A stretch of DNA of 53,610 nucleotides from assembly GCA_023301795.1 (NCBI GenBank), contig JALZVU010000058.1:1-53610 (forward strand). Direction: 5' to 3'. The first letter of the stretch is position 1, and each line of letters starts with the position of its first letter. Below the pieces are notes generated by a model. The model made no database searches, was not told the DNA's origin, and was given only the letters and a program-made list of their open reading frames with translations. The stretch is from Granulosicoccus sp. (lineage in GTDB: Bacteria > Pseudomonadota > Gammaproteobacteria > Granulosicoccales > Granulosicoccaceae). Below are positions 19,619 through 26,576 of this stretch, piece by piece. The position numbers and the translations under genes are program-made.

Positions 19619-20752
19619 TTACTGTATCACCAGACGTTCTATCAACCAGAACGATCCAATGAGTCCAGTTAACAAGGAAGCACCGCGCGCCCAGTGCCAG
19701 GATGGAAACCGTTTGCCTAGCCACCAGATTAACGGGAGTAGTGCGCTGAGAATAATCAGCTGACCAGCCTCAACGCCAAGATTGAAAAAGAGTAGCGATA
19801 AGAAGGCCTGCTCTCCTAATCCGATTTCCTTGAGCACATAAGAAAATCCGAATCCATGAATTAGACCGAACACAAAGCTGCTGAGCAAACGTTCTCTGAT
19901 CTGGGACGTTGAAATCTGAACATAAGCTGATGTGCGCAAAATCGCGATTGTGCGTACCGATACATAAACAATACTAAGGGCAATAACAGTTTCTACGATT
20001 CGAGGAGGCAATGTCACAAAGTCCAGGACAGACAGTGATATTGTGATTGAATGTGCGATGGTGAATGAGGTGATCATAGTCAACAGCACAACGGGTCGCA
20101 TCGGCAGCAATATCAGGCAGAACAGAAAAATGACATGATCAAAACCGAACAGAATGTGCTGTAACCCAATGGGGAAAAAGTGTGTACCGAACGGTCGTTG
20201 AATATAGGGGGAGTCTCCAGTTTTCTTCAGCTTCTGCGAATGGTCAGCGTTTCGTGCTGCCGCTATCTGCATGACTAGAGCCTGGACATCAACTACGTGT
20301 TTGGGATTGTCCGCAGAGAGCGTGACGTCTTGAGATCTGCCCAGTAAGGAGATACGAACAATATTGGAATGAGCTGCTTGCTGATCGTATAACAGCTTGT
20401 AGTGAATATTTAAGCGAGTGATAGGGGCAGTGCAATCAAACTGGAAGTCAAATTGCGCTGAGGCAATGGTGTCCAAGCTTCTTTGTGCGATCGCAACTGC
20501 GCGACAGGGATTGCCGTCGTTTGCAATAACGAAGCCTTTGAGAATAGCTGCGCTTTGACTAGCATCATCGTTTGGTGTGCTACCCAGAGCAAGGCGAGCA
20601 ACTAGCTTCTGAGGTACTGTGTACGTTAGTTTGAGACTATCCTGGGATATCTCTATACCGGTATCCGTAATACCGGCTTCATGCGACAGCACCACTTGTG
20701 AACAAAGTGTGGTAAACAGAAACAGTAAAAATCCGACATTCGAATATCGCAT
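19619..20752 (-). CDS. HupE/UreJ-family membrane protein
   Basis: 377 residues from ATG 20752; a TTG at 20779 is possible. After a signal sequence comes a periplasmic domain of about 170 residues. A helix bundle follows with the HupE/UreJ_2 motifs FPIGLQHILFGFDHVIFLF, TIAHSITISLSVL and FGLIHGFGFSYVL. The histidines and aspartate in the membrane part are those thought to bind nickel or cobalt in HupE/UreJ proteins. It lies about 80 bp downstream of the YHYH-domain gene on the same strand, a pairing I have seen before for these families. Metal transport is inferred from family only. Confidence 0.8.
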   Translation of the reverse strand: MRYSNVGFLLFLFTTLCSQVVLSHEAGITDTGIEISQDSLKLTYTVPQKLVARLALGSTPNDDASQSAAILKGFVIANDGNPCRAVAIAQRSLDTIASAQFDFQFDCTAPITRLNIHYKLLYDQQAAHSNIVRISLLGRSQDVTLSADNPKHVVDVQALVMQIAAARNADHSQKLKKTGDSPYIQRPFGTHFFPIGLQHILFGFDHVIFLFCLILLPMRPVVLLTMITSFTIAHSITISLSVLDFVTLPPRIVETVIALSIVYVSVRTIAILRTSAYVQISTSQIRERLLSSFVFGLIHGFGFSYVLKEIGLGEQAFLSLLFFNLGVEAGQLIILSALLPLIWWLGKRFPSWHWARGASLLTGLIGSFWLIERLVIQ

Positions 20753-20832
20753 ACGAGCATTGTTAGAGTCGGGAGGCAATGTCTGACACTACCTCCCGCT
20801 TATTGACGTTCAAGCTCAAAAAATGAAATGCC

Positions 20833-21942
20833 TTATTCGCGCGGAGGTCCACCAGGGCCTGTGCCGCCGCCAGCGCCACCGAAGCTTTCGTCTGGTGTAC
20901 CAACAAAACACTTCAGAACCCAAGGGTAGGTGTCCGTAACGTAGTAGCCGTATTGGCCGTCCACAGTCATACCGTTACATTCATCCAGATCGCCAGCGTC
21001 ACCGGTGAACTCCCAATCGTCATTGTATTCTCCGGCGTAATCGCCTCCTGGGTTGGTATCGCTTCGCACTCCTCGCGTACCTTCTTTCAAGGTGTATCCA
21101 GAAACTGCCGCGCGCACCATGCCTGAGGCGGTGTCGTTGAAAAAGCTACCGTAAATCGGGAACCCGTCAGCCGCAAAACCAATAACGGGTGATACTCCAC
21201 TAGCCGCTGTATCGTCGAACATCGCATTCGGTCCGCCATGATAGTGATAGAGCCCACCAGGTTGCGTGTGTGCGTTGTTCAGGTCAGCGCCGAATTTGGA
21301 TTCGGTGCCGAGTGGATCAAGCAACCATGGAGCGTCATCCGCGCAACCAATGCCGACATTGCCGTCATCGCCAGCATCTGGGCTAGTCGGGTTATAGCAG
21401 CCAGCGGACAAAATATCGAGACGAACGCCATTCAGGAAGATGCCGTTCTTCACCTGCTGACTAAGCGGTGTTTGCGTAGCGGCCATGGTAGGGCTTCTAG
21501 TAACGGTGGACACGGTGTCTGTGGCCGCTATCGTTGCGCCATCTGCACCACCCGCGAACGCAGCTGTGTCGTCATTGAAATCGTGATTAGGTACGCTGTT
21601 GGACGTAATAGTGCAGTCAGTATCAGTTGCTGTGATAAGCACATCTGCATCGAAGGTAATGCTGTTCTGGATATCAACCGGACTTGCGTCGAATGTATTC
21701 ACATAGTCGGCGCAGTCGGCACTCCTTTCTGTGAATATGGCATTGTAGATATCGATAACTGCAGCGGTTCCGTCTATATCGCTATCGTCACCCGTATCAA
21801 CGATGGTGTCGCCATCACCCTCATCAACGATGGCATCGCCGCCATCAGAGTCGCTGCAACCACTGAGGATTAGCAGCCCAGTGATCGAGATAGTGCTTAA
21901 GACATATTTTATCGAATATGTTTTATCGGAGCGTCTTATCAT
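20833..21942 (-). CDS. YHYH-domain lipoprotein
   Basis: 369 residues. A lipoprotein signal (VLSTISITGLLILSGC) is followed by an acidic linker with repeated Asp/Gly (DGGDAIVDEGDGDTIVD). The C-terminal half carries the YHYH domain: PGGLYHYHGGPNAMFDD and IGFAADGFPIYGSF. The domain is of unknown activity; the histidine cluster suggests metal binding. The protein ends GGTGPGGPPRE. It is probably co-transcribed with the downstream HupE/UreJ-like gene, suggesting joint metal handling at the cell surface. Confidence 0.8.
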   Translation of the reverse strand: MIRRSDKTYSIKYVLSTISITGLLILSGCSDSDGGDAIVDEGDGDTIVDTGDDSDIDGTAAVIDIYNAIFTERSADCADYVNTFDASPVDIQNSITFDADVLITATDTDCTITSNSVPNHDFNDDTAAFAGGADGATIAATDTVSTVTRSPTMAATQTPLSQQVKNGIFLNGVRLDILSAGCYNPTSPDAGDDGNVGIGCADDAPWLLDPLGTESKFGADLNNAHTQPGGLYHYHGGPNAMFDDTAASGVSPVIGFAADGFPIYGSFFNDTASGMVRAAVSGYTLKEGTRGVRSDTNPGGDYAGEYNDDWEFTGDAGDLDECNGMTVDGQYGYYVTDTYPWVLKCFVGTPDESFGGAGGGTGPGGPPRE

Positions 21943-22038
21943 AGCTTATAACCATGTCATGGATCGGTCCGTCGGAGTGTACTGTCCAAATATGGAGAAA
22001 GTGAGGATGCTTTAAGCGGGTATGTAAGGCGACACCGC

Positions 22039-22680: not shown

Positions 22681-23166
22681 ATGATAATCATAATAGATAT
22701 TGAAGCGTCAGGCCTGCATGCCGAAAGTTACCCCATTGAGGTAGGTGTCGTGCTTGCTAATAGCGAGCGCCACAGCATGCTCATTCGCCCGGAAGAGGGA
22801 TGGACCCACTGGGATAGTAGCGCTGAAGCTCTGCACGGAATAGCTCAAGAGACGTTATTGGAATACGGCAAGCCCGTGGCTGAAATCGCCGAGCATCTCA
22901 ATACACTACTGGATGGTCAGCAGGCCTACTCGGACGCGTGGGTGGTCGATAAGCCTTGGCTGGTCAAGCTCTTTGCAGCTGCAAGAATACCGATGAATTT
23001 CAAGCTCAGCGCTATTGAAGGTGTCATGCGTGAGGAGCAGATTCTGCAGTGGGACGACGTGAAAAAACAGGTGACTGCCGATTTAGACGTCAGACGTCAT
23101 CGAGCAAGTCATGATGCGTGGATTATCCAGCAGACATACGTCCGATTAAACCCGGATAGCGCCTGA
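22681..23166 (+). CDS. DnaQ-like 3'-5' exonuclease domain protein
   Basis: 161 residues forming one DEDDh exonuclease domain: Exo I as IIDIEASG (D and E), Exo II around YSDAWVVDKPWL, and Exo III as HRASHDAWII (H and D). Such stand-alone domains trim DNA or RNA ends; the substrate cannot be told. The ATG at 22681 is the first codon of the frame. The end overlaps the convergent amine-oxidase-like gene by 44 bp. Confidence 0.8.
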   Translation: MIIIIDIEASGLHAESYPIEVGVVLANSERHSMLIRPEEGWTHWDSSAEALHGIAQETLLEYGKPVAEIAEHLNTLLDGQQAYSDAWVVDKPWLVKLFAAARIPMNFKLSAIEGVMREEQILQWDDVKKQVTADLDVRRHRASHDAWIIQQTYVRLNPDSA

Positions 23167-24700
23167 ACACAACGTTGATTGAATAGCTCAATAACAGCAT
23201 CAATAGCCCTACCGAACTAAGGCCCCCGGAACTTGTGGATGTCTGCTCATCCGGGTTGCCTACAGTCCAGTTGAAGCTTCTTTGTACCTCGCTATGATCA
23301 TCACGCACACTAACTTGCACGGTGTATCGACCAGCAGTGGTCGTGTGCCCATGAACATGTCCATCAGGGCGTAGCTCAAGCCCAGGCGGCAAGCCTGTAC
23401 CTGAATAGCTCAACATGTCGTCATCGGTGTCAGTGGCCTTGATCATGTCCCCGTGTACAAGCTCCCCCACGGGCGTCTGCTTATCGGGTAATTCGGCAAA
23501 CTCTGGTGGAGTATTAGGAAGATTGCTCAAACCACTGGTGCCTTTGAGCAAATTCACCGGCCGAATAGAAAAGTCATCCCAATGTGTGTGCATGTGCCGT
23601 TGATCCTCACTACGCGGCGTGTGATGAAATGACACTCGGTTCCACAGCACCACATCTTCGCCCTCAATGGATTGTCCATCCACATACTGCAGTACGTGAT
23701 TCAGGCAATCAGGGTTAAAGCGTGCATTCTGACTGGCAAAGCGTTCACAGTCGTTGCCCACGGTGACAAAAAAATCAAACTCGGTATAGGGTTCGACCTC
23801 TTTTCTTTCAAATCGATGTCCGTTGCGCACAGGTTCAAACTGATAACCCGGAGCAGTTGCTGAGGCGTTGTCCATAATGCGCCATAGCAGGTGAGCTGCC
23901 GGATCAATTATGCGCGCCTGTTCGGTGGCAAATACCTCTGTATTCAAGTTTCGTCGCCCGGATTCGTCAATCTGGTAGCGAAGCTCGGAGACCACATCGT
24001 CGGTTGCGGATGTTCCAAGATCGAAATCCAGACGCCAGTAGTAGGTATGCGTGTGGGATAACCACAAGGTATCCGGATCCCCCTGTAATACGCGACCAAA
24101 TGGAAGCTCTGTATTGTCAGAGCTGCGTTGCAAAGCACCGGTGGCACCTACACCTGGCTCGAAGGTACCGTCGTCATAGAATTTCCAGTTGACGACGTAG
24201 GCATAAGCACCCACCTGCGAGACCGAGAACAGGTTCAGGCTGGCAGCTGTTGCGCCTCTGGATGGGGTCAGATGGCCATTGTCAGCACGCGTTTCCCACA
24301 AGCACAAAGCGGGGCGGGTCTGCACATCAAGCAACCTGCCAGTAGGGCAGTCGGTATTGTCGAGCGTTGTCAGGTAGCTACCGCCCAATCCAAACTGTGT
24401 GACATCGTTGTAGGTCACATCGCTATCGTCATACGCAACATGTAACTGGCTCAAGCGCGCTGAGGCCAACACCTTGAAAGGCTCACCGCCTGGCGGCGTA
24501 AAATGAATATCGCTTAACACCAGGTTTTCGCGGATGCGCGATTCCCAGCATAAGTCCCACTGCGAACCATTGTCAAAGTTGTGTGTGATACGAGATTCTG
24601 CTGCGCAATTGGGTTGCGCTGTGGCGGTAGCGCTGAACATTGCACTCCCTGAAAACGCGATTAGAACCAAAATCCAGCGGACTACAGTCAGGATACTCAT
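23123..24700 (-). CDS. Secreted copper amine oxidase-like catalytic-domain protein with Ig-like domain and C-terminal anchor
   Basis: 525 residues with a signal peptide ending near ATAQP. Residues about 45-395 match the catalytic beta-sandwich of copper amine oxidases (CAO). D99 in YNDVTQFGLG aligns with the catalytic base, Y166 in VGAYAYVVNW with the tyrosine that becomes topaquinone, H216 and H218 in HTHTYYWRLD with two copper ligands, and H359/H360 in FHHTPRSED with the third. The usual NYD/E around the cofactor tyrosine is AYA here. The N-terminal CAO domains are absent. Residues about 410-480 form a putative Ig domain (GLPPGLELRPDG), followed by a Ser/Gly stretch, a hydrophobic helix and RR, like a sorting or anchor tail. 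Third gene of a coupled operon (ATGA overlap). Activity is uncertain. Confidence 0.7.
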   Translation of the reverse strand: MSILTVVRWILVLIAFSGSAMFSATATAQPNCAAESRITHNFDNGSQWDLCWESRIRENLVLSDIHFTPPGGEPFKVLASARLSQLHVAYDDSDVTYNDVTQFGLGGSYLTTLDNTDCPTGRLLDVQTRPALCLWETRADNGHLTPSRGATAASLNLFSVSQVGAYAYVVNWKFYDDGTFEPGVGATGALQRSSDNTELPFGRVLQGDPDTLWLSHTHTYYWRLDFDLGTSATDDVVSELRYQIDESGRRNLNTEVFATEQARIIDPAAHLLWRIMDNASATAPGYQFEPVRNGHRFERKEVEPYTEFDFFVTVGNDCERFASQNARFNPDCLNHVLQYVDGQSIEGEDVVLWNRVSFHHTPRSEDQRHMHTHWDDFSIRPVNLLKGTSGLSNLPNTPPEFAELPDKQTPVGELVHGDMIKATDTDDDMLSYSGTGLPPGLELRPDGHVHGHTTTAGRYTVQVSVRDDHSEVQRSFNWTVGNPDEQTSTSSGGLSSVGLLMLLLSYSINVVFRRYPGLIGRMSAG

Positions 24701-25863
24701 CGAATCAACTCAAACGGAGAGGTAGGCGTCCAGTCAAAGGGCAGTAGCGTGAAAGACTGATGAACATGACTGATGACCGGCCAATGCTCGTTAGTAGGAT
24801 TGAGCGTGCGTGACTGGCTGAACCACAAGACAGGCTGAGCACCAGCTAGGGTCTCACCATTCACAAAATCGTCGAGCGAAGCGCCGCAACGTTCTTCATT
24901 TACAAAGCTTGCATTATTATGCAGAGCATACCGTTCGCAGGATTTAAACGCGGTGAGAGCAACGTCGAAACGCGCCCAATTATAAGCGCTCCCGATAAAG
25001 CTGAAGCCGCTGTTCGACGGGTCCAGATAATAGCCAGCGCCTACCGGATCAATGATTCGCCAGCCACGAAAACTTGTCCTTTTTACAACTGCCAGTGATT
25101 CCGTGCCAAGTTCAGTGACTTGCATGGGGCGTCGATTACCACGGGCCTCATCCAGCTCAAATTCGAACTGCTGAACACTGTCTGGTGCGCCGTCATCTAA
25201 ATTAAAGCTCATTCGCCAAGTAGACAGAATGGTAGCTCGAGGCAAATATTGACCACTGTTGGGTAGCGTTGCAGCAAAATCTGAGGGCTCATCGTTGAGT
25301 CGAGCGCGCCCTGATAGAGACAGTCCGGGCGTAATCTGGCCATCTTCTCGAAACGCGATGGAGATAGCCCAGACCAACCCCTCGCGTTGCAAGGCGCTGG
25401 AAAGCTGCCATCGCTGGCTCTGCAGGCCGGGGTCTTGAGCGTACTTGGCGGTTATCCGATTGTCTTCAACACGGCTACATAGGGTGGCGTCGGTACCCTT
25501 ATTGAGCAGTAGCGTTCCGCTGCAATTGTTAGCTGTCATGGTGAGAGTGCGCGGCATGCCTGCTGTATTGATCTGTGCGCGCGGCAACTCCTCATCATGG
25601 TAGTGCATCAATATCTGTCCGATATGTGCGATACCCAGAACAGATCGACTGATATCACCCGGTGCGCGGTAATACACTTGTGAGACTTCCAGGCCGTGTT
25701 GCTCATCGGTTCTGGCACACAAAGACCAGCTTGCACCTGAGGCGAACGACTGCGTGAGTGGCGTCCCCACGACGCAAGGGGCGGCAGCAGCAAATGCTGT
25801 GTTCCCCGAAGACACCATGACTAACACGAGCGCTAGCAACATCTGTTGTGCCGTTAGTCTCAT
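24697..25863 (-). CDS. Secreted copper amine oxidase-like paralogue lacking active-site residues
   Basis: 388 residues with a signal peptide ending near AFAAAAP. It lines up along its length with the catalytic core of the neighbouring 23123-24700 protein, for example SGASWSLC with NGSQWDLC, and FREDGQITPGLSLSG with FYDDGTFEPGVGATG. The copper HxH is replaced (ATILSTWRM), the cofactor tyrosine position is Leu (REGLVWAI), and the third histidine motif is gone (SQSRTLNPTNEHW). It is therefore probably a non-catalytic partner or scaffold. It overlaps both neighbours by 4 bp (ATGA), implying translational coupling and fixed stoichiometry. Confidence 0.65.
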   Translation of the reverse strand: MRLTAQQMLLALVLVMVSSGNTAFAAAAPCVVGTPLTQSFASGASWSLCARTDEQHGLEVSQVYYRAPGDISRSVLGIAHIGQILMHYHDEELPRAQINTAGMPRTLTMTANNCSGTLLLNKGTDATLCSRVEDNRITAKYAQDPGLQSQRWQLSSALQREGLVWAISIAFREDGQITPGLSLSGRARLNDEPSDFAATLPNSGQYLPRATILSTWRMSFNLDDGAPDSVQQFEFELDEARGNRRPMQVTELGTESLAVVKRTSFRGWRIIDPVGAGYYLDPSNSGFSFIGSAYNWARFDVALTAFKSCERYALHNNASFVNEERCGASLDDFVNGETLAGAQPVLWFSQSRTLNPTNEHWPVISHVHQSFTLLPFDWTPTSPFELIR

Positions 25864-26576
25864 GGGTTTTCCAGCAGCGTGACCTGCAAAGCCTGCAGAT
25901 TAACCACGGGCTCTATAGAGAACACTGTGCGGGTCGCATCGAAGAGCGAAAACAGAACACAACGTTGCAGATGGCAAGCATGCTGATTGTCCATAGGCTC
26001 GAAGATGCTGGCTTTGACGTCCAGTTCGGCAAGTTCGCCAAAGGGTGCACGTCCACGTTGCAGTTGCTCTTCTCGCAGCTTGTCCAAAATATCTGTGCGC
26101 TGCGACAGTAGATCCTGCCCGTAGGCGATTTCAGCGGTGTTCAGGGGCAGGTGAACCGATGCAATCAGCTTGACCTGAATAACTTCATTGCTGTCAGGAT
26201 CGATGCCCAGTCGTCGAGCTTGCTGCAGTCCATAGTGAAATTGATAGACCTGAACACGTTTTGATTCGGGCTGGGCCTTGTTTTCCTGTTTTTCTACGGA
26301 TAGGGTTTGTGCACCCAGAGGGTGGTTGTCGGGGTTTGTTGCAGGTGCAGGCTGTGTGCTTCTTGACGCCAGACCAACGGCTGTCGACGACTTGGCCGCC
26401 ACCCAGGCTGTGCCATCGGCCAACAGCATGGCCTGCTGACGCTGGGCGTCGTTCAGAGATGCGGCCAGCGCAGCAGACACCGGCACTAAAAATGCCAGAC
26501 AAAGAGCAACCGCACCTATCGCATGCGACAGGCCCGTGCACGTAAACCATGAATTAAAATCCCTCATACGTGCCAT
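25860..26576 (-). CDS. Secreted protein resembling a detached copper amine oxidase N-terminal domain
   Basis: 238 residues from ATG 26576 (a TTG at 26630 extends it). A signal region (AIGAVALCLAFLVPVSAALA) is followed by a low-complexity linker. The C-terminal half reads HLPLNTAEIAYGQDLL...LAELDVKASIFEP...RCVLFSLFDATRTVFSIEPV. This resembles the CAO N2 domain pattern: HPL-x-x-x-EI...LL, then I/L-x-EP, then a strand with D-x-x-T-x-T-x-E and V-x-L. The resemblance is by eye and moderate. The first gene of the three-gene operon, it ends in an ATGA overlap with the catalytic-dead paralogue. Confidence 0.5.
   Translation of the reverse strand: MARMRDFNSWFTCTGLSHAIGAVALCLAFLVPVSAALAASLNDAQRQQAMLLADGTAWVAAKSSTAVGLASRSTQPAPATNPDNHPLGAQTLSVEKQENKAQPESKRVQVYQFHYGLQQARRLGIDPDSNEVIQVKLIASVHLPLNTAEIAYGQDLLSQRTDILDKLREEQLQRGRAPFGELAELDVKASIFEPMDNQHACHLQRCVLFSLFDATRTVFSIEPVVNLQALQVTLLENP

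Follow-up and report, generated by a model that had tools for sequence, protein, structure and literature searches.

A three-gene operon of Granulosicoccus encodes copper amine oxidase domains as separate proteins, including a catalytic-domain paralogue without active-site residues

The window analysed here is a stretch of 53,610 nucleotides from Granulosicoccus sp., and its minus strand carries a trio of genes in the 5' to 3' order A, B, C (Table 1). The open reading frames and the two ATGA overlaps that join them lie where a sequence-only reading had placed them. At related loci, a start codon occupies the corresponding -4 position at 26 of 38 A/B junctions and 26 of 39 B/C junctions. All three proteins have signal-peptide-like starts, as judged by eye. 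The upstream neighbor is a ChaC-like gene on the opposite strand, and the downstream neighbor is an exonuclease-like gene convergent with the operon. Downstream of greB, at 19619-21942 of the window, a HupE/UreJ-like membrane protein and a YHYH protein are encoded side by side; they do not recur in the neighbor table of related loci and are therefore not counted with the operon. No RNA families were found between positions 22000 and 28000, and scans for promoters and terminators gave only chance-level results. The genes are not pseudogenes, as the open reading frames are intact across many species and dN/dS is low.

Table 1. Features of the operon, in window coordinates
Feature	Position	Strand	Description
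Gene A	25860..26576	-	238 aa; signal-peptide-like start and two cystatin-like alpha/beta repeats, predicted CAO N2+N3
A, first repeat	26163..26462	-	Residues about 39-138; N2-like (hhalign 87-90% to CAO N2, and model)
A, second repeat	25872..26153	-	Residues about 142-235; N3 by position in structural alignment
A stop/B start overlap	25860..25863	-	ATGA, read from sequence
Gene B	24697..25863	-	388 aa; paralogue of CAO catalytic domain (D4), lacking the copper ligands, precursor Tyr and catalytic Asp
B stop/C start overlap	24697..24700	-	ATGA, read from sequence
Gene C	23123..24700	-	525 aa; CAO catalytic domain (47-385), Ig domain, sorting-like tail
C Tyr90	24431..24433	-	Second conserved Tyr position, Tyr305 of HPAO-1
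C Asp99	24404..24406	-	Catalytic-base position (alignment)
C Tyr166	24203..24205	-	Topaquinone-precursor position; Ala-Tyr-Ala in place of Asn-Tyr-Asp/Glu
C His216	24053..24055	-	Copper-ligand position 1 (alignment)
C His218	24047..24049	-	Copper-ligand position 2 (alignment)
C His360	23621..23623	-	Copper-ligand position 3 (alignment)
C He_PIG Ig-like domain	23261..23473	-	Residues 410-480; Pfam
C tail	23126..23227	-	Gly-Gly, hydrophobic stretch and Arg; GlyGly-CTERM-like by eye

The C protein matches the Pfam family PF01179 at 5.5e-30, above the cut-off, over its catalytic domain. Its predicted structure (pLDDT 80.7, pTM 0.72) aligns best with the copper amine oxidase (CAO) of A. globiformis (Z 33.1, the highest score; 2.9 Å over 327 residues with 23% identity), which upholds the earlier suggestion that the third protein resembles the CAO catalytic domain. 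The B protein of the window matches the same family at 3e-10, also above the cut-off, as do all 39 B rows scanned, and the second protein is thus a paralogue of the third, as had been proposed. The A protein is much less conspicuous. As a single sequence it has no relevant match in Pfam, NCBIfam or PDB sequences, and DUF6338 (E 0.16) and 7cy2 (E 0.86) were dropped as relatives because the matches are weak. Its likeness to CAOs instead rests on matches of its relatives to Pfam AGAO-like_N2, on profile-profile comparison and on predicted structure. AGAO-like_N2 is matched by three of the 34 A relatives scanned (best 3.6e-4) and is the only family matched by more than one of them. When the A profile was compared with six single-chain CAOs (hhalign), probabilities of 87-90% were obtained over N2; the second repeat gave a weak signal (14-16%), again to N2.

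The AlphaFold2 model of A (33 rows; pLDDT 89.6, pTM 0.82) consists of two helix-plus-sheet repeats. In a Foldseek search of the PDB with this model, all 50 matches listed are CAOs, 39 of them at E<=0.001. VIA-align gave the top rank to the CAO of E. coli (Z 9.3-10.6, rmsd 4.3-4.7 Å), with 171-173 residues aligned to a chain range of 86/87-281, which is N2 and N3 together. A non-CAO cystatin-like fold was considered and rejected: YpmB (Z 8.8, 61 residues) accounts for the first repeat only, and CAOs alone cover both. By its predicted structure, A is the CAO N2+N3 domain pair. The N2 likeness noticed in the sequence-only reading therefore stands but is extended, as A is predicted to comprise two such repeats, and the absence of any CAO-fold similarity in A, named there as grounds for abandoning the idea, was not what we found. 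PMC3382800 describes the N2 and N3 (D2 and D3) domains of CAOs as products of a duplication.

Of 57 relatives searched, 30 carry A; these comprise 26 of the 27 members of the genus and four of nine further members of the family, with none of 21 elsewhere, and eight genus genomes have two copies. At each of 38 loci A is succeeded by B, and C comes next unless the contig ends. A scan of genome contigs for two exact peptide patterns recovered 39 loci, all labeled Granulosicoccus or Granulosicoccaceae except for one Chromatiales MAG; the scan missed the second family described below, and so further divergent copies may exist. A is present at 36 of these 39 loci. The loci without it are L122, which begins at a contig end, L110, whose B is truncated close to a contig end, and L121 (the same locus as L064, G011:C227), a B-C pair with no recognizable A in roughly 250 bases before B. 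A sample of the class revealed the module in another bacterial family, through the genome G109. In this second family, strong B/C matches occur in 27 of 60 genomes, and A, which was sought only in those 27, is present in every one. At each of 18 A-bearing loci read, A precedes a B-like gene, with C next in 17 of them; the G410 genome has its C on a different contig from A-B. The arrangement is not invariably a simple trio: the order A-B-C-C is found in G403 and G409, lone C genes retaining all active-site residues occur at five second-family loci, and two B-C pairs surround one A (B-C-A-B-C) at L166 (G109:C52) and G417:C15. Beyond these lineages A is rare, being absent from 366 of 369 class genomes (found in G000, G014 and G109) and from 397 of 398 phylum genomes, in samples that overlap and hold one genome per species. 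The same three-gene order thus exists in other genomes. The genomes with A also have B and C, except where B or C runs off a contig end, so that the other ground for abandoning the idea named in the sequence-only reading, A homologues in genomes without the other two genes, did not arise either.

The alignments comprised 36 of 39 C rows (A1; L052, L054 and L084 run off contigs), 34 of 38 A rows (A2; L059, L073, L084 and L089 were removed for badly placed starts), 39 of 41 B rows (A3; L083 and L046 were left out as cut), and the window with 32 of 36 relatives (A4; L094, L106, L113 and L128 were left out). Active-site residues were aligned against six single-chain CAOs, using 64 C rows at covered positions only. 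Among covered Granulosicoccaceae C rows, the Tyr305 equivalent is retained in 39 of 39, the Asp in 39 of 39, the precursor Tyr in 38 of 38 and each His in 36 of 36; in the second family each of these residues is present in 25 of 25. What has changed is the motif around the precursor Tyr. The Asn position is occupied by Ala (25), Ser (12) or Thr (1) in 38 Granulosicoccaceae rows and by Ala (19), Ser (3), Glu (2) or Gln (1) in 25 second-family rows; in no C row is the Tyr preceded by Asn or followed by Asp or Glu. Because it lacks both the Asn-Tyr-Asp/Glu consensus motif and the single-chain layout, C is not a canonical CAO. The loss of the Asn is costly in known enzymes. In the A. globiformis CAO, Asn381Ala still forms topaquinone, at 1/180 of the rate, and has 1/160 of the kcat, according to PMC9491219, and PMC3382800 reports that 5-10% topaquinone remains after an Asn-to-Ala change in HPAO-1. 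The altered motif of C could mean that other residues compensate, that the enzyme is slow, that a cofactor is made by another route or that C is not an oxidase.

In B, the same positions have largely been emptied. The Asp is present in none of 39 Granulosicoccaceae and none of 19 second-family proteins, and His1 and His2 are each missing from all 40 and all 19; the precursor Tyr is found in none of 39 and in three of 19, and His3 in one of 39 and nine of 19, with the caveat that B positions in loops depend on the alignment. Nevertheless, B is under purifying selection: where dS was usable, in four of eight pairs, dN/dS is 0.09-0.14 for B and 0.06-0.12 for C. Judged by these residues, B is a catalytically dead paralogue of CAO D4. 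A tree of 88 rows was built from 19 B/C pairs of Granulosicoccaceae, the full set of 44 second-family rows and six CAOs, with chains trimmed. It unites the B proteins of both families in one clade (support 100/99) and leaves each of five groups undivided, but it does not fix how the two C groups are ordered. Since the B clade is common to both families, the divergence of B and C preceded that of the two families' copies, whether these separated by descent or through operon transfer.

Beyond its catalytic domain, C carries an Ig domain and a tail suggestive of sorting. The C protein of the window has no match to any GlyGly-CTERM model, and TIGR03501 (GlyGly-CTERM) matches one of 36 C rows, at E 0.023. 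The host genome encodes a rhombosortase, with 150.8 bits to TIGR03902 against a cut-off of 84; in control genomes, 14 of 14 match this model and none of 14 scores above the cut-off. The C proteins of L190 and L201 reach about 1,450-1,490 aa, with numerous Ig-like repeats, and in each case a second C (517 aa) comes next. Seven second-set operons (L055, L060, L062, L064, L067, L078 and L080) adjoin a secreted protein, in which SdrD_B domains were seen at L062, and five of the seven also adjoin a small lipoprotein.

Directly after the operon, 14 of 18 second-family loci (L164, L187, L188, L190-L192, L194, L195, L199, L201-L203, L205 and L206) encode a YtkA-like protein and a diheme enzyme of the MauG/MbnH family. 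Of the four loci without the pair, L197 and L198 end at C with the contig, and L166 and L193 are second copies. None of the 40 operon loci tested in Granulosicoccaceae carries the pair. A close MauG relative occurs in 12 of 274 class genomes, and no A, B or catalytic C was present at the 12 loci read that carry the pair or at L210 and L211 (14 loci). In the two YtkA-like copies read, a Met-Pro-x-His-x-His-Gly stretch was seen. At L210, L211 and L215 the pair has large PA14/galactose-oxidase-like proteins as neighbors, and in two of these proteins a CCP_MauG domain is present as well. A different CAO derivative is found at L213:4678-7190, a 604-aa protein that matches PF01179 over positions 13-62 only and has carbohydrate-binding domains; the protein encoded before it, of 234 aa, has no assigned family.

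The operon shares with bacterial CAOs of the A. globiformis AGAO and E. coli TynA type (PF01179) the D4 and N2+N3 folds and, in C, the three His, the precursor Tyr, the catalytic Asp and the second Tyr. It differs in being divided into three chains, with N2+N3 in A and D4 in both B and C, each with its own export-like start, whereas AGAO and TynA are one chain. It also has an additional dead D4 (B), lacks Asn-Tyr-Asp/Glu, and bears an Ig domain and a sorting-like tail on C. The same genome encodes a single-chain PF01179 relative (L001, G000:C4, 638 aa from the first Met), which, unlike the operon, has Gly-Asn-Tyr-Glu and N2-N3-D4 in one chain. Among solved structures, the best sequence matches of C are the pea seedling CAO (1ksi) and Pichia lysyl oxidase (1rky), both single chains, and C aligns with 1ksi over residues 75-391 only. 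The diheme enzyme after the second-family operon belongs with MauG and MbnH but scores below the curated cut-offs of both models, and no such gene lies near the operon in the family of the window. PMC3382800 describes CAOs as homodimers in which arms of one subunit extend into the active site of the other, and states that every structurally known CAO is a homodimer of one chain. We found no description of a split or heteromeric CAO in the open-access literature searched; subscription papers are mostly outside that coverage.

The anatomy of a CAO split over three genes in a fixed order, as originally proposed, is close to certain. We think it about an even chance (roughly 0.5) that the trio constitutes an exported heteromeric copper amine oxidase with a pseudoenzyme subunit. 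This model is built on the computed folds of A and C, the origin of B and C as paralogues, the loss in B of residues that C retains and the conserved gene order; from these we infer assembly and activity, with copper and quinone, an amine substrate and anchoring. The active site would reside in C alone. Tyr166 of C would be self-oxidized at a putative copper site to a topaquinone-type cofactor, and C would then oxidize a primary amine outside the cell to an aldehyde, ammonia and H2O2. B, with the D4 fold but no active site, would replace the second catalytic domain of the CAO dimer, A would supply the N2+N3 domains to the complex, and the Ig/tail region may hold C on the cell surface. Several observations count against a heteromeric oxidase: the cost of an Asn-to-Ala change in known CAOs, the varying B:C:A ratios, the lone C genes, the B-C pair without A at L121 and the lack of a GlyGly-CTERM match in the C of the window.

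Some of these observations would suit other explanations. C may no longer be an amine oxidase, the trio forming instead a surface complex that binds copper or amines without turnover, and the absence of Asn-Tyr-Asp/Glu from all C proteins, the adhesin-like Ig domains on C and the seven second-set operons next to a protein with SdrD_B adhesin-like domains in L062 are consistent with this. However, copper binding alone needs no invariant Asp, precursor Tyr and second Tyr, and Ala at the Asn position still permits topaquinone formation and slow turnover, and we regard such a complex as rather unlikely. We consider it unlikely, too, that C acts alone or as a homodimer, with A and B as assembly factors or regulators rather than lasting subunits. 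The five second-family loci with a fully equipped lone C, and the excess of C over B (two genes to one) in G403 and G409, point in that direction, but the fold of A corresponds to exactly those CAO domains that are missing from C, and purifying selection keeps B together with A and C.

The altered motif around the precursor Tyr, together with the YtkA-like and MauG/MbnH diheme genes after most second-family operons, also invites the idea that C uses another cofactor or another route, such as a radical on a Tyr or the modification of a Tyr/Trp by a diheme enzyme. That is very unlikely, as the YtkA-MauG pair is missing from every Granulosicoccaceae locus tested and is widespread elsewhere, including the 14 loci without the trio. 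A bolder reading is a heteromeric quinoprotein amine oxidase with live and dead catalytic subunits and a Tyr cofactor formed without Asn-Tyr-Asp/Glu, matured in the second family by the copper-binding YtkA-like protein and the MauG/MbnH-type diheme enzyme. The reading of the pair as a maturation module is weakened because the pair often occurs elsewhere in the absence of A, B and C, and we consider this bolder reading unlikely. If it were true, the pair might serve several copper oxidases with Tyr-derived cofactors, as it also adjoins galactose-oxidase-like proteins at three loci.

In some marine bacteria, the parts of an enzyme that is normally one self-pairing protein are thus encoded as three exported chains, one of which is a dead version of the catalytic part. 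A CAO divided by nature at the border of N3 and D4, with a dead D4 maintained by selection, would test the role of the second subunit and of the N2 and N3 domains. The trio would also test whether topaquinone formation really needs the Asn-Tyr-Asp/Glu motif.
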